Below are positions 11,993-20,571 of a stretch of 20,571 bases of DNA, one piece after another. The DNA is taken from positions 1 through 20,571 of IMG/VR virus record IMGVR_UViG_3300027969_000489, one strand, 5' to 3'. The notes beneath the pieces are model-generated. The model was not told the origin of the DNA. It made no database searches and worked only from the letters and a program-made list of their open reading frames with translations. Position numbers and translations under genes: made by a program. Position 1 is the first letter of the stretch; every line of letters starts with the position of its first letter. This stretch comes from a virus.

Positions 11993-12020
11993 ATCCCCGG
12001 CTAATCACCGGGGATTTTTT
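11993..12020 (+). terminator. Rho-independent terminator of the + strand operon
   Basis: ATCCCCGG (11993-12000) pairs with CCGGGGAT (12008-12015) around a 7-nt loop, followed by six T (12015-12020). It works in the + direction. The opposite strand has no T-run after the stem. The right arm and T-run lie inside the last codons of the convergent giant gene, whose stop is at 12001-12003. Confidence 0.85.
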
Positions 12021-15000
12021 CTGCCTTTCGTTTAGCCGCCATCTCAGTGGCCCGTCGATCTAGACGATCTTGCAGCTTGTCCGCAGCTTCTCCAACGATT
12101 GAAACATTCTTCTCCGTGACGTTCACACCTGCACGAGAGCTTGCACGTTGTTCAGCCTTCTTGAGAAGCGAATTGTAGATGGAGTCGGCATCAAGTGCGT
12201 AAGACGGGTTCTTCTTGTTGAACTTAGAAACTTCGTTCTCTATGATGTCGGCAAACTTATCATCCCCTGCATCGGTCTCTTTACGGCGTTGGAAATCAAG
12301 TTTGTTCAGTATCAAGTTGCGTTGGTTATTGATTTTTTGCTCGATACCCGAATATTTAAACGCTGGGCCTTGAGTAGCGGCAAGGATATCAGGACGGAAA
12401 CCAATTGCTTGGCCAATTATTTCACCCGTTTTTACATCGTCTTTGCCGACTAACTCCTTGCCGCGACCAGTCTGCATACCTTCGTCTGCGTATTTGTTAG
12501 CAACTACAAGGTTACGAACCACAGCGGGGAGCATGCGCTCCAACATCTTCTGGTAGTCACCCATTGCGTAAGCATCGTAGGCATCGGCAAAACCTAACAT
12601 CAAACTGGCAGTCGGGCCACCAAAGTGATCCAGCATAAAAGCAATTGCGCTTTCACGAGAAGTCTTAGTCTCTTTGCTGTCACGCCCAAATAGATCGGCT
12701 AGTCCAATACGAGCACCAATAGCCCATCCGGTAAGCGCATTAAATGGGCCTTCTTTAACGAGGTCGCTTACGGGCACGCCGCCAAGCGTAACGTCGCCTA
12801 ACTTATCGGGGAGAAGTACTTCAAAGAACCAAGTAAAGAAGTCAATATTTTTAAGTTCTTCAGGCCAGTCGTCGTCCAAACTCAACTGGCTCCAAGCCCA
12901 TCCAGCAAGCCCCATGATTGGGTTAATCAAAGCCATGTTTGCCGCACCAGCAAGCAAGAATGATGTGCCCATCATGCCAAAGAATTTAGTAGCTGCTTCT
13001 TTCTTGCCTTCTTTGTTGAGGAAGGGGAGCATCTTCTTAAAGTTGGTTAGCAGCAGCAAAGACATCTGCAACGGATACGTCTTGAACTGAAACGCAATCT
13101 TGCCAATACCTTGCTGCATAAACCGTGGGCGGTTTGTAACGTCGTAGTTACCCAGCGCTTCGTTGGTGGAGTCAACAGCTTTTTGTACGGCAGTGTCGTA
13201 GTCAAGTCCCTGCTTCTTACCCAACCGATACGCAGCTAGATACACGGCCTCACGGCTTAAACGCTCAGTGTTGTGCATCAATGCACCGACCATCAAGTTT
13301 GCAAGACGCTTGCCTTTACCTACAACACCCTCAAACTGCTCGGTGGACATGCTTTTGTAGCCCCACACCAAAGAGGCATAGGTTGACTCAGACACACCAC
13401 GGGCTGTCATCTCACCGATAGCTTTGCGCTCGTCGGCAGGAAGAGTTTTGTTATTGGCAATGCTCGGCGCAGAAATAGAGGTTGTACCGTCTACATTAGG
13501 GCGGAATACGCTGTATTGATTAACCAGAGTGGTCATCTTTGCAAGCTCAGTAGCCGCACCTGTAGCGTTGTTGTAGTTACCAGCAAGTACAGGCAAACCA
13601 GAAATAAATATGCTAGAAGGCTGAATCAATGCCGACGCAGCAGAAGACAAGTACCAGAAGTAAGACGCTTTGTTTGCAACACCAGCAACAGACTCGCTTA
13701 AAGAACCGTGAGCGCCAGACAACGCCATGTCAATACGTTTCTCAGCTTCTTGCACAAACGGGGACAACTCTTCACGCTCGGCAATAGAGTTACGCGCTTC
13801 TGACATTGCGTTACGGAGAAGCGGCCCGTACTTCAAACGTGCCAACTGAATGGATTGTTTAGAAGCAGTAGTCGCAATGTTTCGCTGCAAGTCTGTACTA
13901 AAACCAGCCCGACCTTTACGGTGAGTAAACTGCCTGCGGAACGATTGCTCCGGCATTGTGGTCAGATAGATCTGGTAGACCGCATCCTTCAAACCTTCTT
14001 TAGCTTCAGGCGAGCCCAAGTCTTTGGCGTCGATTGCTGCAAAAACTTCTTTAAGCATCTCGCTTGAGTTCTGTGATGCGGCGCGTAGTTCTTTTAGGTC
14101 GTTGCCTTGCTCAAACTCTTTATCGGCCACCAACTCAGCTAAACTTTTCCCCCGTTCAGCCGCTAATTTTTTAGCCGCTTCATTACGTTCTGCGCGAGTC
14201 TCAAATAGATAGAACAAGCGTTGCTCACCCGAGCCAATGGCTAGGAAGAAATCACCACGGCGCACTAACGGGAAGAAAGGCTTGATCCTCGACTCGGCTT
14301 CAAATGTTTTACGCAAGACAGCCATCAGATTTTTCTTCTCTTCCGTAGTCATACCCTGCAAGTTATTTATCTGCTCGTCCAACAGATCAGAGTACAACTC
14401 AATGACTGACTCATAGTAGTCCCGCAACTTCTTGTACATGCGCTGACCGACAGGGCCGAGTGCTTTGTAGTCGTCATCAAGTTCTTTACTGCGTACACGG
14501 GTGCTAGTGTCAGACGGGTCTATCTCTGCCAGCGTAGTGGCGTACACAAATTCTGAAAATTTCTCACGGCTAAGTTTGGGGTCTTCCTTAAACCCACGGT
14601 TCATAGAACCAATTATCTGCTCTGCGCCAACCAAAAACTTCTGGGACATACCCAACATGCGTTGCATTTGAGTGTTAGCTTTATTTAGCGCAGGTATACC
14701 CGCATCAGCGGCCCACTTAGCTAAGAAGTCAAACGTAGGAAGGCGCACAGTAGCTTGTAGCTTGGCATACCCCAGCGCATCAGTTACGTTAGCCAGTATT
14801 TCGCGCACAGCTTTGGGGTCACGCGCCAACTGCATCAACTCAACGTTCTTAGCCTCTTCGCCTTCACGGGACAGCCGCACTTTTTCTTTTGCAATCTTTG
14901 CGTCTTTTTCAAGCTGAGCAGCGGTGCGTTTTACTTTAGAGTCGGCCTCTTCGTCGAACAAATCTTCTGGGCCTTTTTGTTGGAGCGAAGTTCTTCCTGT

Positions 15001-18000
15001 TTCAACTGCTGTCAGTCTTGTATCAAGCATCTTGTCTGTGATGTCAACCAAGTCAGTGAACGCAGTAGCTTCACCCTGCTTGATACCAAACAAATCACGG
15101 ATACTGCTAACAAACGTAGAGAAGAGAGTTGGCTCTTTGCGTACACCTTGCACGCGCATCAAGAACTTTTGGAACTCCGGGCTAGACATGCCGTAAGCCA
15201 AGAACTCATTAGGGTCTTTAAATATGTCGTAGCTGTCTGTTTTGTCGTTGTAGGTTCTGCTAACTATGTCGTTAACGTCCTCATCAACCATGTCAAGGTA
15301 CGCCAAGTCTTTGTATTCCTGCTCGGCACGCTTCATGATGCCGTCCATCTCGCGCATAAATTTCTGCAAACTAGCGTTTTTAAAGCCTTTCAATAGACCT
15401 GCTGTAATACGACTAGCCGTTGCTGCGTGCAACAATTCATGTAGCACTGTTATATTATTTATACCCTGTTGGTCTCCGAAGCTACTACCACGCACGTAGA
15501 TAGTACGTTCTTTCCCTAGCATCACAAACAAGCCCCGCGCACCTTCTAACTCGGCAAGAATACTGGCCGGGGTTGCATCACCCTTCTCAACAACCACAAA
15601 CTTAACGCCAACCACAAAGTTACGAATGCGCTGGGCCACAAACCGCTGGAACAGATTGCCTGTCTTGATGATTTGCGCAATTGCTTGCGAGCCGTTAACC
15701 AGTCCGCTAAACCCTGTGTCAGCTTTGGCTACTTTGGCCTCAGAAGAACGCATCTTTTTAGGAATGTCCTTGGGGTCGATGTCTTCTTCAAGCATCTGCT
15801 TGGCACGTTCACGCACTGCTTTGGGTGCGCTAGGATCATTTGCAGCGTCGTTGATATACATAGCTGCATTAGCTATGCTAGTTTTTTCTGCGGGCGAGTT
15901 ATACGTCTCAAGCGCCGACTCCAAGGCAGCAAGTTCTACTTTGGTGTCCTGATCTACTTCAACAGTGCCGTCTTCTGATGGGGCTTTAGCTGGTCGGCCT
16001 CGGCCTTGTGAAGCAAGTGCTTTATCAAGTTCAGCTTGGTACTGAGTAGCACGGGCAGCATCGCCCCTGTCTTGCGCTTTAGCCAGATTTACAGCCGCAG
16101 TAGCTTGCTTCCTGTTCTTGTAGGTCGCGGTTACTGCACCGTCTGTAACGTGTTCAAACCCACCTTCGGGGTTCTGTGCTACTACATGCTTTTGCGGGGC
16201 GGGTGGCCGACCACGCTTACCGGTTACTGCTCCGGTTGTTGGTGGTGTTTGTCCTTCTTGCGCTGCTTCGATGGTTTCAGAGGTTTCAGTGCCAAGTGGG
16301 GCTCCTTCAGTTTCAGTTACGGGTTCTTCTATTGCGGCTGGTGCAAGTGTTTCAGGTGTTTTAGGTGTTTCAGTTACGGGTTCTTCTATTGCAGTCGGCT
16401 CGAGTCTTTCTCCTCCAACAACCCCTGTAACATCCTGTCCAGCAGGAACCACTCCACTTGGCTCAGCGACTCCAACTCCTCCGGCGGGGGGCTCTGCACT
16501 GGGCTGTCCAGCCACTTGAACGCTGTCTCTACTTGGCTCGGTGATAGTCTGTCCAACATTTGTTTCTCCTTGAGCTTCTACCCGCGCAAGTTCATCCGCT
16601 TGCACTTCCTCTTGAGCTAGGTTTTGGGCATCAATTACTGCTTGCTGTGGTGGGACGCCAGACGCAATTAAGTCTTGCGTGATTTGCTCAACACGGTTCT
16701 CAGGTACTTTTATGGCGGCGTCTTTATTCTCGGCCTTTAGCTGGGCATCAACTTTGCGTGTGGCAATATTTTCAGCGTTTTCTGCGGGAATACCTTGTTG
16801 GATATTAATTTCAGTAAGCGCGGCAATGCGGTCGGCGCGAACTTTTTCGGGTGTTGTTTCTAGTGGTGGCGCTTCTTTTAAGTCGTCGCTTGGACGCACT
16901 TTGCCAAGTTCGCCTAAGTTTGTATCCGTTGGTTTTTTCTCCGCCGCAAGCTCAGCGTTAATCACGGCTTGTTGCTCGGCCATCTTAGCGTCGCGTAAAT
17001 TAGAACGCGCTTCTAGCGGAGCAGTAACGCCCTCGGCCAAAGCCTCAAGTAACACATCGGCGGGTTTGTTTTCACCTGTAGCTTTTTGCGCTGCAAACTC
17101 ACCACCTGCGCCTCCAGCCATTTGGGTTGTTAATTCTTTGCCCCACGCCGCCATCGTAGCTTTTGTAGCCGCAGAGCCAGCAAGTTTGCCTTCCGCAATA
17201 AGAGCCCGTGCGGGCTTTAAGAACCTACCTGCTATGCCCATAGATAGAGCGTCGAATGCGCCGACGATTAAACCCCGCTTAGCGCCCTTGTCTTTGATCT
17301 CCGCAATAATTTTAGGGTCAGATAGAGCTTTGGACACCGCGTTTGCGTCCAGCATATTGACGCCTTTGTCTTGCAAGACATCAGCCATAACGGAGCCATA
17401 CTCAAGACCACCAGAACTAAGGCCAGCCGCGCCAGAACGAGCCAAAACTCCAGCGGGGCCGAGCACCAAAGCAGGAGCCATAGCAGGCAAAGACACAGCC
17501 ACCGACTCAACTAGCATGGTAAATGTTGCACGTGGGTTAGAAGCCAGAGCGGTAATAGCGTCGCCGTAAGTTTTAGCGTTGCCAATTTCTTCCATACCCT
17601 CACGTATAGCCTGTGATGGGGCAGCGGCAGCTCTTTGTTTTGCGTTACGCGCCAGCAAGCGTCCAGCGGCATCTGCGTCGGTTACACCGGTTTGAAACAA
17701 GAAACTTGTGGCCACATCGCCTAGGCTTGCGTCTACGCGCTTAAACATATTGCCCATTGCTTCTGCGACGTACTTTACGTCTGTTACGGGAGACTCAAAA
17801 AACTCCGTCTCGGGCGTTGCTTTAATTTCACCAGCGGGTTGGGCTTTAACGGCTGGTACAGGCGCAGCCATTGGCGCTTGCTGCTTAAAGTAGTCACTAC
17901 CCCGCCCCTGTCCGTGCTTAACTACATCACCCCATTTGACGCCCATTTTCTGCAAGGACTGCTTCATCTTATTAAGGTCTGCACCCTCTTCAATAAGATT

Positions 18001-18291
18001 GACGGCGTCGTCTAGCATTTCCCTTCGGTCTTTGTACGGGGCGGCTTTAGCTGGCCCCGGTTCTTTGCCCACTACGGGCGCAATTGGGGTTTCAGCAGGG
18101 GCAATGTCAGCCGCCATTGCAGCGCCAAAGTCATATCCCGCTTTAGGCTCCGCAGCTTGCGTAGGTTTTTGTGTAGGCGCAGGTTGGCTCCCTGCAATTA
18201 AACGCTTAACAGTGGATTGGATTACCGCTGGGTCTGTGCCATCGGGAAACTCAAGAACTCGCCCATCTGCGAGTTGTGCCTCGATTGCCAT
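12001..18291 (-). CDS. Giant polyvalent/ejection-type protein with metallopeptidase and PLxRFG-like regions, 2096 aa
   Basis: Probable internal virion protein delivered with the DNA. Residues 1-32 (LADGRVLEFPDGTDPAVIQS core) form a tag typical of large phage internal proteins. About 265-360 is Ala/Gly-rich and hydrophobic. Two helical repeats (488-517, 533-562) share the form RhxxhT-x4-IxxGhP-x3-A. A Pro/Glu/Thr linker (585-690) has a repeated AIEEPVTET. AT-hook-like motifs lie at 692-697 (KRGRPP) and 763-767 (GRGRP). HELLH (951-955), with Glu1029 in DPNEFLAYG as possible third ligand, indicates a zinc metallopeptidase. FFPLVRRGDFF (1338-1348) is a variant PLxRFG motif. Hydrophobic stretches near 1541-1570 and 1765-1797 may enter membranes. 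The C-terminus (1890-2045) resembles that of PLxRFG proteins. The start has AAAGGG upstream and follows the 508-aa gene by 9 nt. The virion role is inferred, not shown. Confidence 0.85.
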   Translation of the reverse strand: MAIEAQLADGRVLEFPDGTDPAVIQSTVKRLIAGSQPAPTQKPTQAAEPKAGYDFGAAMAADIAPAETPIAPVVGKEPGPAKAAPYKDRREMLDDAVNLIEEGADLNKMKQSLQKMGVKWGDVVKHGQGRGSDYFKQQAPMAAPVPAVKAQPAGEIKATPETEFFESPVTDVKYVAEAMGNMFKRVDASLGDVATSFLFQTGVTDADAAGRLLARNAKQRAAAAPSQAIREGMEEIGNAKTYGDAITALASNPRATFTMLVESVAVSLPAMAPALVLGPAGVLARSGAAGLSSGGLEYGSVMADVLQDKGVNMLDANAVSKALSDPKIIAEIKDKGAKRGLIVGAFDALSMGIAGRFLKPARALIAEGKLAGSAATKATMAAWGKELTTQMAGGAGGEFAAQKATGENKPADVLLEALAEGVTAPLEARSNLRDAKMAEQQAVINAELAAEKKPTDTNLGELGKVRPSDDLKEAPPLETTPEKVRADRIAALTEINIQQGIPAENAENIATRKVDAQLKAENKDAAIKVPENRVEQITQDLIASGVPPQQAVIDAQNLAQEEVQADELARVEAQGETNVGQTITEPSRDSVQVAGQPSAEPPAGGVGVAEPSGVVPAGQDVTGVVGGERLEPTAIEEPVTETPKTPETLAPAAIEEPVTETEGAPLGTETSETIEAAQEGQTPPTTGAVTGKRGRPPAPQKHVVAQNPEGGFEHVTDGAVTATYKNRKQATAAVNLAKAQDRGDAARATQYQAELDKALASQGRGRPAKAPSEDGTVEVDQDTKVELAALESALETYNSPAEKTSIANAAMYINDAANDPSAPKAVRERAKQMLEEDIDPKDIPKKMRSSEAKVAKADTGFSGLVNGSQAIAQIIKTGNLFQRFVAQRIRNFVVGVKFVVVEKGDATPASILAELEGARGLFVMLGKERTIYVRGSSFGDQQGINNITVLHELLHAATASRITAGLLKGFKNASLQKFMREMDGIMKRAEQEYKDLAYLDMVDEDVNDIVSRTYNDKTDSYDIFKDPNEFLAYGMSSPEFQKFLMRVQGVRKEPTLFSTFVSSIRDLFGIKQGEATAFTDLVDITDKMLDTRLTAVETGRTSLQQKGPEDLFDEEADSKVKRTAAQLEKDAKIAKEKVRLSREGEEAKNVELMQLARDPKAVREILANVTDALGYAKLQATVRLPTFDFLAKWAADAGIPALNKANTQMQRMLGMSQKFLVGAEQIIGSMNRGFKEDPKLSREKFSEFVYATTLAEIDPSDTSTRVRSKELDDDYKALGPVGQRMYKKLRDYYESVIELYSDLLDEQINNLQGMTTEEKKNLMAVLRKTFEAESRIKPFFPLVRRGDFFLAIGSGEQRLFYLFETRAERNEAAKKLAAERGKSLAELVADKEFEQGNDLKELRAASQNSSEMLKEVFAAIDAKDLGSPEAKEGLKDAVYQIYLTTMPEQSFRRQFTHRKGRAGFSTDLQRNIATTASKQSIQLARLKYGPLLRNAMSEARNSIAEREELSPFVQEAEKRIDMALSGAHGSLSESVAGVANKASYFWYLSSAASALIQPSSIFISGLPVLAGNYNNATGAATELAKMTTLVNQYSVFRPNVDGTTSISAPSIANNKTLPADERKAIGEMTARGVSESTYASLVWGYKSMSTEQFEGVVGKGKRLANLMVGALMHNTERLSREAVYLAAYRLGKKQGLDYDTAVQKAVDSTNEALGNYDVTNRPRFMQQGIGKIAFQFKTYPLQMSLLLLTNFKKMLPFLNKEGKKEAATKFFGMMGTSFLLAGAANMALINPIMGLAGWAWSQLSLDDDWPEELKNIDFFTWFFEVLLPDKLGDVTLGGVPVSDLVKEGPFNALTGWAIGARIGLADLFGRDSKETKTSRESAIAFMLDHFGGPTASLMLGFADAYDAYAMGDYQKMLERMLPAVVRNLVVANKYADEGMQTGRGKELVGKDDVKTGEIIGQAIGFRPDILAATQGPAFKYSGIEQKINNQRNLILNKLDFQRRKETDAGDDKFADIIENEVSKFNKKNPSYALDADSIYNSLLKKAEQRASSRAGVNVTEKNVSIVGEAADKLQDRLDRRATEMAAKRKAEKIPGD
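15427..15441 (-). other. HExxH zinc metallopeptidase motif in giant protein
   Basis: These codons encode HELLH (residues 951-955) in the context NITVLHELLHAATAS. The two His and the Glu are the classical zinc ligands and general base. No third His follows at the metzincin distance; Glu1029 of NEFLAY is the best candidate third ligand, as in gluzincin-like and polyvalent-protein peptidases. Confidence 0.75.
16310..16335 (-). repeat. 26-bp direct repeat, copy 1 (in giant gene linker)
   Basis: Identical to 16367-16392, with starts 57 bp (19 codons) apart. It encodes AIEEPVTET in the Pro/Glu/Thr-rich linker. It probably arose by duplication and could expand or contract. Confidence 0.85.
16367..16392 (-). 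repeat. 26-bp direct repeat, copy 2 (in giant gene linker)
   Basis: Second identical copy of the 26-bp unit at 16310-16335, in the same reading frame of the giant gene. Confidence 0.85.
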
Positions 18292-18300
18292 AAGAACCCT

Positions 18301-19827
18301 TTACGGAAGTTGTTTACCCGCCGCATCAAATTTTAATACAGTCCTAGGGTTAGCAGATTGTGGGTTTACAGTTACATAATTCTTTTTAAACTTAGTTTCC
18401 GCAGCTTCTACGCTACCCGCATCCGCAACAGCTTTTTTCCACTCGCGGCTATTCATAAGCTTGTGTTTAGCAAGCGCTTCGTTTGCTGCAATATTTTCCT
18501 TAGACTCAACGGGTGCAATCCTAGTTGCAGCGTTAAGCCCCCCAATTTCACCAGTAGAAAACGAAGTCTTGGTTTGTTTTGCAGTCAATGCGCCAGCTTG
18601 TGCGCGTATACGTGCCGTAAATGCTTCTGGCGACTCACCTTTTTTTGGCTTACTAGTTGCCATTAGGTCAGCTACGTTATCTGCGTATAGTTGTTCAGCC
18701 AACTTAGGCCCAGCGCCAGCGCCAGCGCCTTTACCGGTAGCTCGATTACCTGTAACGCCTTTAGCGGCTAGGTTAGCCACGGCATTATTTAAATCAAACT
18801 CAGCTTTGTTTTCGTCTTGCTGGAACTTTCTGTAGTTCTCCATAGAAGCATCTGCGGCGCGTAAATTACCCATACGCTCTTTACGTTGTGCATCTTTAAG
18901 GGCAAACTGCATCTTAGCGTTAGCAGTTTTCATGGCTTGATCGGCACGGTCAACTTCGCCCATTGCACCTGCGTAAGCTGGCAGTGCGTTACTAGCGCCC
19001 TCAGAAAGACTACGGCCTTTAAGAACAGCGCCCGCCGCAGTCAACAGTGCCATAGCTTCACCAGTATTACGGCGTTTGGCTCTGTCGGCGTCTTCTTGCG
19101 CCCCACGTGCTATTTCAGGCCCGTAAATATCTGGGCCAGCATTTTTAGTCTCACGCTCTAAAAACTTTGCACGTAATGCTTCTTGTTCTGTCGGGTTTGT
19201 TTTTCGAGCCCTCCTTTTTTGCATATTTTCTATTTGTTTTATTAGCAGCGAGTTAAACCGATCAGTTGCACTACCTGTGCCAGCATCCGTAGCTGTATCC
19301 GTATCAGCGTCATCATCTACATACATACCTGTTTCGTCTTCGCTATACGGTGTACCGGGTGGCACGGTAAGCTCCCCACCGACTGGGGCAATGTTGTCCG
19401 TAACCAAACTGTTGTTATTTTCTTTGGTAGGCCCTGCAAACGCAACAATGCCGCCAGCAGCGTAGTCTTCTTCGGGCGTGTACATACCGGCCAAACCACC
19501 GGAAGCGGCTTGCATCGTAGGCTGTGGCATTGGGGGGCGCTGCGGCATACCTTGGGGGGCTTGACCCATTGCACCGGGCACCATCGCCCCTAGACCTTGC
19601 ATCATAGGAGGAGGGGCCATGTTCTCAGCAACGATAGATGGGGACGAACTCGGCTGTTGTGCCTGACCCGCCATAGCCATTCTTTGAGATTCTTTGACCA
19701 GCTTCAGTGCATTTAGCGCAGTGTAGGGGTCTAGCTTAGGGTCAGGGCTCTGGCCCATCACCGCAGCTTGCAGAGCTTGAGGGTTTTGTTTGTACCGCTC
19801 GGCGTAGACAGATGCCATGTCAATCAT
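18301..19827 (-). CDS. Putative internal virion protein, 508 aa
   Basis: A low-complexity protein with several parts. There is a helical N-terminus (MIDMASVYAERYKQNPQALQ) and a Met/Pro/Gln/Gly-rich section (52-112). A short motif GMYTPEEDYAAGGIVAFA (114-131) follows, then an acidic Asp/Thr run (171-183). A long Ala-rich helical region comes next (190-355), and a charged C-terminal part. The AAGGIVAFA motif is one I recall from phage proteins coded next to giant internal proteins. No enzyme motif is present. The start has AAGGA 6 nt upstream, partly made of the previous stop codon, and the gene sits 9 nt before the giant. By position and composition it corresponds to a middle-sized ejection protein such as T7 gp15, but sequence similarity to gp15 is not evident. 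Confidence 0.8.
   Translation of the reverse strand: MIDMASVYAERYKQNPQALQAAVMGQSPDPKLDPYTALNALKLVKESQRMAMAGQAQQPSSSPSIVAENMAPPPMMQGLGAMVPGAMGQAPQGMPQRPPMPQPTMQAASGGLAGMYTPEEDYAAGGIVAFAGPTKENNNSLVTDNIAPVGGELTVPPGTPYSEDETGMYVDDDADTDTATDAGTGSATDRFNSLLIKQIENMQKRRARKTNPTEQEALRAKFLERETKNAGPDIYGPEIARGAQEDADRAKRRNTGEAMALLTAAGAVLKGRSLSEGASNALPAYAGAMGEVDRADQAMKTANAKMQFALKDAQRKERMGNLRAADASMENYRKFQQDENKAEFDLNNAVANLAAKGVTGNRATGKGAGAGAGPKLAEQLYADNVADLMATSKPKKGESPEAFTARIRAQAGALTAKQTKTSFSTGEIGGLNAATRIAPVESKENIAANEALAKHKLMNSREWKKAVADAGSVEAAETKFKKNYVTVNPQSANPRTVLKFDAAGKQLP
18711..18728 (-). repeat. Hexanucleotide tandem repeat (three units)
   Basis: CAGCGC/GCCAGC units repeat three times in frame and encode a Gly-Ala run (GAGAGAG) in the 508-aa protein. 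It is a small slippage-prone tract with no sign of frame change. Confidence 0.7.
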
Positions 19828-19836
19828 GATTATTCC

Positions 19837-20571
19837 TTAAACCAAGTGATTCAAAGCAAGTGCGCCAATACCGCCGCCGTTTGATTCCACCGCACCGCCG
19901 TTGGCAAACAGTTTGCTGATACCAGCCGCGCCAAGACCCAACGATGCAATATTTTGTGCAGCCGAGGGAGGAGCTTGATAAATAGAACTACCTGTTTGCG
20001 ACAGAGGCGTGCCGCGCAACATATCAGACATAAAGCTAAGCTGCTTATACGGGTAGTTCTGGAAGTTCAGATAGTCTTGGTATTTATTGTTTAAATCACT
20101 TTGCACCTGTTGCTGCTGTTGCAAACCGTACTGGTTCTGAAATGCGTTAATGCCCATGTTCTGTTGGTACTGCGTGTTGCCCAGATTGCCTAAATTTTGA
20201 GCAGCTTGACCAGCCGTTTGCAGACCCTGAAGACCTAGACCCGCACCAAACTGTTGCTGCTGAGCGTTAAGTTGGTTTTGAGCGTTGTACTGTTGCATTG
20301 CTTGGTTGTAAGCGTTTTGCAGCCCAGTAGCTTGGATGTCACCCTTTTGACGGGCTAAGTTATTTGCTGCTTGGCTACGCATAAGGTAGTCACCGCTACC
20401 GCCAAATGCACCCGAACGAGCCGCTTGAGCTTGCTGCGCTTGTCCTGCAATTTGAGCTTGGCGTTGAGCGTCCTGCTGCTGCCGAGCCACCACATTGTCC
20501 ATGTAAGGACTCATCAGGTTTTGAGCAGCCGAAGAGTTAAAGTTCGCCGGGTTAAACGTGTACTGTGTATT
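19837..20571 (-). CDS. Gln/Ala-rich putative internal virion protein (N-terminus cut off)
   Basis: The frame is open to the window edge. Nineteen codons precede the ATG at 20514 without a stop (FNPANFNSSAAQNL), so the gene starts outside the window and 244 residues are visible. The pattern NLMSPYMDNVVARQQQDAQR, then ARSGAFGGSGDYL and GDIQATGLQNAYNQAMQQYN, is a family common in phage virion modules, after tail or portal-linked genes. It is about one-sixth Gln, mostly in long helices. Near the C-terminus are a Pro/Tyr patch (NYPYKQLSF), a Gly/Ala-rich segment and LFANGGAVE, a shorter form of the AAGGIV motif of the next gene. It ends 9 nt before the 508-aa gene. A role like T7 gp14 (the first ejection protein) is inferred from order and composition. 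Confidence 0.82.
   Translation of the reverse strand, partial: NTQYTFNPANFNSSAAQNLMSPYMDNVVARQQQDAQRQAQIAGQAQQAQAARSGAFGGSGDYLMRSQAANNLARQKGDIQATGLQNAYNQAMQQYNAQNQLNAQQQQFGAGLGLQGLQTAGQAAQNLGNLGNTQYQQNMGINAFQNQYGLQQQQQVQSDLNNKYQDYLNFQNYPYKQLSFMSDMLRGTPLSQTGSSIYQAPPSAAQNIASLGLGAAGISKLFANGGAVESNGGGIGALALNHLV

Follow-up and report, generated by a model that had tools for sequence, protein, structure and literature searches.

We analysed a 20,571 nt window of phage DNA from an environmental metagenome (positions 1 to 20,571 of IMG/VR record IMGVR_UViG_3300027969_000489, taken as a whole), whose + strand holds a replication block with genes for DNA polymerase A, an exonuclease, a SNF2-type helicase and a DUF927-type primase/helicase. 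This block is convergent with the end of a virion operon on the - strand, in which a phrog_4287-type ejection ORF, a 508 aa protein and a 2,096 aa giant follow one another with 9 bp gaps (Table 1). The same operon order, with an identical giant, is found in a 60,257-base IMG/VR contig (L015/G001), where the ejection ORF is present as a complete copy of 330 aa (phrog_4287, E 1.1e-11) and where a 1,172 aa protein, a virion structural protein and tail-fibre genes lie ahead of the operon. A gene resembling a homing endonuclease is also present amid the virion genes of this 60 kb relative (L181:124-849). The two terminase models searched found no terminase in the 60 kb relative, so the virion type was judged from the ejection operon: the giant is the large gene closing a cluster of ejection-protein genes, as in podoviruses. 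The PhiM1 homologue is modelled as a tetrameric ejection protein inside the virion (PMC11440229). For the 508 aa protein, searches of Pfam, PHROGs and the isolated phages detected no relative; it is probably another ejection protein. Across 84,980 bacterial and archaeal genomes, no prophage relative of the giant's 1,190 aa core was confirmed.

Table 1. Features of the virion operon and of the giant protein, with window coordinates (residue numbers refer to the giant)
Feature	Position	Strand	Evidence
2,096-aa giant, candidate internal-virion/polyvalent protein	12001..18291	-	ATG start; AAAGGG RBS-like sequence ahead; homologues in 31 IMG/VR loci
508-aa protein of no known family, directly upstream of the giant, same operon	18301..19827	-	
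DNA ejection protein-like ORF, upstream, same operon	19837..20571	-	phrog_4287 E 1.6e-8
N-terminal module, residues 228-446	16954..17610	-	phmmer E 3.5e-23, 5e-19; tblastn; common to giants of Limnohabitans phage DC33 and Xanthomonas phage CP2
Hydrophobic stretch, residues 259-284, possible membrane contact	17440..17517	-	Kyte-Doolittle scan
Pro/Glu/Thr-rich linker, residues about 541-700	16192..16671	-	Composition scan; few conserved columns
AT-hook-like KRGRP, residues 692-696	16204..16218	-	Alignment of relatives
Second AT-hook-like motif, RGRP, residues 764-767	15991..16002	-	
Zincin-type metallopeptidase domain, residues 880-1088	15028..15654	-	AF2 pLDDT 89.9, pTM 0.87
HELLH, residues 951-955, two predicted zinc ligands and general base Glu952	15427..15441	-	
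Glu1029, predicted third zinc ligand, on the next helix	15205..15207	-	Invariant in alignments; model helix 148-157
LPD39-like stretch, residues 1248-1322	14326..14550	-	Pfam PF18858 20.9 bits, below the cut-off of 27
Helical C-terminal region of DarB-like/PLxRFG giants, residues 1320-2062	12106..14334	-	phrog_10089 E 4.8e-59

The original prediction had described a hydrophobic part, a long Pro/Glu/Thr linker and PLxRFG-like parts in the giant. The first two were recovered by the scans, the former as a single strongly hydrophobic stretch; the third stood in part, in that phage proteins bearing the names 'PLxRFG protein' or 'DarB-like' are homologues of the C-terminal third, but the motif itself is absent, with no PLxRFG, PLxxFG or PxxxFG pattern anywhere in the giant. 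The linker is variable between relatives, and its most conserved feature is the AT-hook-like KRGRP. Across 64 aligned relatives its Gly is kept in 94% and its Arg in about 80%; among 32 dereplicated relatives, 16 have [RK]GRP where 0.2 would be expected. KRGRP aside, nothing resembling a cleavage site is conserved along the linker in the aligned relatives. The conserved AT-hook-like motif is a modest new element of this family, and the two motifs hint that the giant touches DNA, either in the head or at ejection. The N-terminal module recurs in the 3,125 aa giant of Limnohabitans phage DC33 (L035, PQ492659), whose 39 kb record is placed under Inoviridae, a taxonomic assignment that looks wrong.

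The zincin-type domain, to which Pfam models gave no match, lies between the linker and the C-terminal region. A HELLH motif with Glu1029 as candidate third ligand had been proposed for the 2,096-residue protein, and comparison with relatives bears this out: Glu1029 sits 78 residues past the first His of HELLH, and His951, Glu952, His955, Thr958 and Glu1029 are retained in all 39 sequences that span the region (the window and relatives at 22-88% identity). These five are the only invariant columns among the window relatives, phiKMV gp37, N4-type virion RNA polymerases and others. Some of the sequence sets were retrieved by motif patterns and are thus biased; no active-site pattern went into the first scan, whose members, including one at 25% identity (L031), retain all five residues. 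HELLH and Glu1029 together form a predicted intact zinc-peptidase active site, and catalysis is favoured because the putative general base, Glu952, is invariant. Structure prediction of the peptidase region had been suggested as a check, and an AlphaFold2 model of residues 880-1088 gave the zincin order of helix, three strands, HExxH helix and Glu helix (H2-13, E18-22, E41-46, E49-55, H67-88, H148-157). The model has an HEXXH helix, a later helix bearing the third-ligand Glu, and a three-stranded sheet between one N-terminal and two C-terminal helices, all features of the zincin-like MPTase superfamily. The fold and third-ligand Glu of this superfamily, which includes region 2130-2448 of the N4 protein and is the commonest domain in polyvalent proteins, were described by Iyer et al. 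2017 (PMC5512222), and the window domain is a member of this already known group. Its best BFVD match was a phiKMV-type internal core protein (TM 0.73), with Vibrio virion RNA polymerases also among the nearest predicted viral folds. Among PDB folds the best were SprT-type metallopeptidase domains (prob 0.98 and 0.94), which are weak matches at E 0.2-0.3; no solved zincin matched at E below 0.001, and 8vb2 and N4 vRNAP were absent among the best Foldseek matches listed.

Sequence searches with the domain led to ejection proteins of several phage types. A single-sequence search of PDB sequences recovered 9sfn_G, an 'Internal virion protein' of 1,337 aa, at E 1.8e-11 over the domain, and a profile lacking both phiKMV and N4 recovered it at E 5e-20; the phiKMV gp37 ORF is of equal length (1,337 aa). 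The PhiM1 ejection protein (8vb2) was matched at a profile E of 0.0076 and by hhalign at 93-96%, and an independent PHROG virion-RNA-polymerase model matches phiKMV gp37 at the zincin position (E 2.5e-17). Among isolated phages the domain also found N4-type virion RNA polymerases, the DarB-like giant of Serratia Parlo, Xanthomonas CP2 and others. The phiKMV gp37/9sfn_G zincin is ~26% identical to that of the window, has HExxH...E and is likewise in the final ejection gene; however, the protein is much shorter, its local match is limited to the zincin and no DarB-like/LPD39 C-terminus was detected. In PhiM1, the aligned stretch (residues 381-518) includes HEAAHAKT (385-392) and a Glu motif, THEFIS, and the protein has been seen in the virion; unlike the giant, it is called endolysin-like by its authors and has a phiKMV/T7-type hub architecture. 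The N4 vRNAP is also a giant ejected protein with a hydrophobic N-terminal stretch and a zincin (HELVH at 2228 and Glu-helix motif aligning with the window) before a large helical C-terminal domain. The window giant, by contrast, has no T7-type RNA polymerase domain (no Pfam or PHROG match), and the two C-terminal regions lack detectable homology, with hhalign matching the zincin only. The giant's C-terminal ~1,000 aa was also considered as a homologue of N4 C2 or phiKMV gp37 and was rejected, having no local profile support; a well-scoring global phiKMV alignment owed its score to the zincin. These comparisons tie the ejection proteins of phiKMV and PhiM1 to the N4-type zincin, a predicted relationship that is a modest new element; phiKMV is unmentioned in the text of Iyer et al. 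(PMC5512222).

In its C-terminal ~750 aa the giant is homologous to the DarB-like/PLxRFG giants (Serratia Parlo gp81, Klebsiella ZX1, PHROG 10089), and tblastn with this region matched Klebsiella ZX1, Serratia Parlo and others. Parlo gp81 also has a zincin, at 1195, whereas its methylase, helicase and transglycosylase domains are missing from the window giant. Foldseek with the 1,190 aa core model (pLDDT 71) gave no significant match. LPD39, sub-threshold in the window, exceeds the Pfam cut-off in five relatives (L101, L109, L113, L133 and L007). Some relatives insert an ART-PolyVal domain (E 3e-16), an ADP-ribosyltransferase, or a GHKL/HATPase-like domain between zincin and LPD39; inserts of these types lie at residues 1194-1331 of L101 and after the zincin in L113 and L146. 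The identities of the modules vary independently, the pattern that domain swapping in a polyvalent protein would give: one relative (L054) shares 83% with the window in the zincin and 48% in the C-region, another (L122) 9% in the first 220 residues and 90% in the C-region. With zincin, LPD39-like stretch and DarB-like C-terminus in one very large chain and domain exchange among its relatives, the giant is a polyvalent protein with a metallopeptidase, a class that Iyer et al. 2017 had already characterised (PMC5512222). Proteins of this class are also encoded with late/packaging genes and delivered with the DNA; the giant's operon contains DNA-ejection-type, virion structural and tail genes, and its delivery would be a prediction.

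From the computed homology, fold, conservation and operon we infer packaging, ejection, zinc binding, activity, timing and substrate as follows. Taken jointly, it is likely that the giant is an ejected, polyvalent-type internal virion protein of a phage with a podovirus-like ejection operon, and that its zincin acts after delivery. Membership of the polyvalent class, a zinc-peptidase domain and delivery with the DNA had all been anticipated, and homology, fold prediction and gene context back them, delivery by implication. The giant would be packed in the head and then pass through the tail with the DNA to join an ejection complex; injection with the DNA is probable, given where the gene sits in the operon, the homologues that have been seen in virions and the polyvalent layout of the protein. 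Its modules would be a variable, partly hydrophobic N-terminus, a flexible AT-hook-like linker, the zincin and the large helical DarB-like/LPD39 C-terminus. Zinc would be held by H951, H955 and E1029, with E952 as general base, and the peptidase would most likely be active once in the envelope or cytoplasm, not as a head maturation protease. Its target would be a host protein or, under regulation, the giant itself; the zincin may possibly cut host proteins. The literature searched, in its accessible parts, reports no substrate for a zincin of the polyvalent type, and the accessible text of the papers on the N4 and PhiM1 homologues reports neither bound zinc nor protease activity.

Cleavage of the giant by its own zincin, in the head or after entry, would free its parts, and such self-release is the main suggestion of Iyer et al. 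for these domains (PMC5512222). In P1, DdrB carries an MPTase domain and undergoes processing prior to packaging (PMC5512222), and a long flexible linker does precede the zincin here. The original prediction had placed the cut at this Pro/Glu/Thr linker, a proposal that found no support: the linker has no conserved cleavage-site-like motif except KRGRP, and N4 vRNAP, with its homologous domain, enters particles unprocessed (PMC5512222), its purified form showing 'no evidence of degradation' (PMC12633501). We regard self-cleavage as unlikely. Because N4 vRNAP is unprocessed and the linker has no conserved site, action after entry is favoured over processing before packaging, with a host or envelope protein as the first choice of target and regulated self-cleavage the next.

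Less probable is a structural role, in which the zincin fold would serve the ejectosome and its catalytic residues would be retained mainly for metal-stabilised folding. The PhiM1 region is described as a structural insert in the hub, where charged loops close to the path of the DNA are disordered (PMC11440229), and T7 manages without a zincin, both of which suit such a role. However, Glu952 is no zinc ligand and would be dispensable there, yet none of the aligned sequences has lost it, and we consider a purely structural zincin improbable.

A cell-wall enzyme opening the murein at entry, either an endolysin/exotransglycosylase or a metallopeptidase that cuts peptidoglycan peptides, is what existing annotations would suggest. 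Residues D268-D528 of the PhiM1 tetrameric ejection protein are labelled endolysin/exotransglycosidase-like (PMC11440229), many phiKMV-like gp37 database entries carry an endolysin domain or exotransglycosylase annotation, and no other muralytic domain was recognised in the scanned neighbours. The labelled PhiM1 stretch, however, holds the very HEAAHAKT and THEFIS motifs that align with the zincin, and shows HExxH...E in a domain of predicted zincin topology. SLT or lysozyme models found no match in the window giant, phiKMV gp37 or PhiM1 gp48, whilst the same test detected SLT in the positive controls T7 gp16 and Parlo; this muralytic null is weak evidence, as Pfam also missed the annotated lysozyme motif of phiKMV gp36. 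It is the positive zincin match, rather than the missing SLT or lysozyme match, that calls the label into question, and on sequence grounds the endolysin/exotransglycosylase label on phiKMV gp37 and PhiM1 is likely a misannotation. We place little weight on the cell-wall reading as a whole, less than on a structural role, although the zincin may possibly cut murein peptides. In the open literature, incompletely covered, we found no relabelling of the phiKMV/PhiM1 region as zincin. As a zincin is found there, the endolysin-like domain annotation in use should be rechecked. The ejection proteins whose labelled region aligns with the zincin lie at L182:7198-10989 (PhiM1) and L036:4837-8850 (phiKMV gp37).

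A chance occurrence of HELLH in so long a protein, of the kind seen in T7 gp16, is refuted with near certainty by the invariance across families, the third ligand, the model topology and the rarity of HExxH in shuffled giant sequences (0.45%). The HERLH of T7 gp16, our negative control, is lost in the relatives of T7 gp16; it was rejected as a further family member, its motif being unconserved and its profile match not meaningful.

A broader reading, possible though doubtful, is that a single zincin clade is the common working part of otherwise unrelated ejectosomes, namely those with the phiKMV/PhiM1 tetrameric ejection protein, the N4 virion RNA polymerase and the DarB/LPD39 giant; it would be an active protease on an envelope or cytoplasmic host target at DNA entry, with the 'endolysin/exotransglycosylase' label misassigned in two of them. 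The same five invariant residues occur in the phiKMV-type, PhiM1 and N4 ejection proteins, which makes a point-mutation test possible in laboratory phages.
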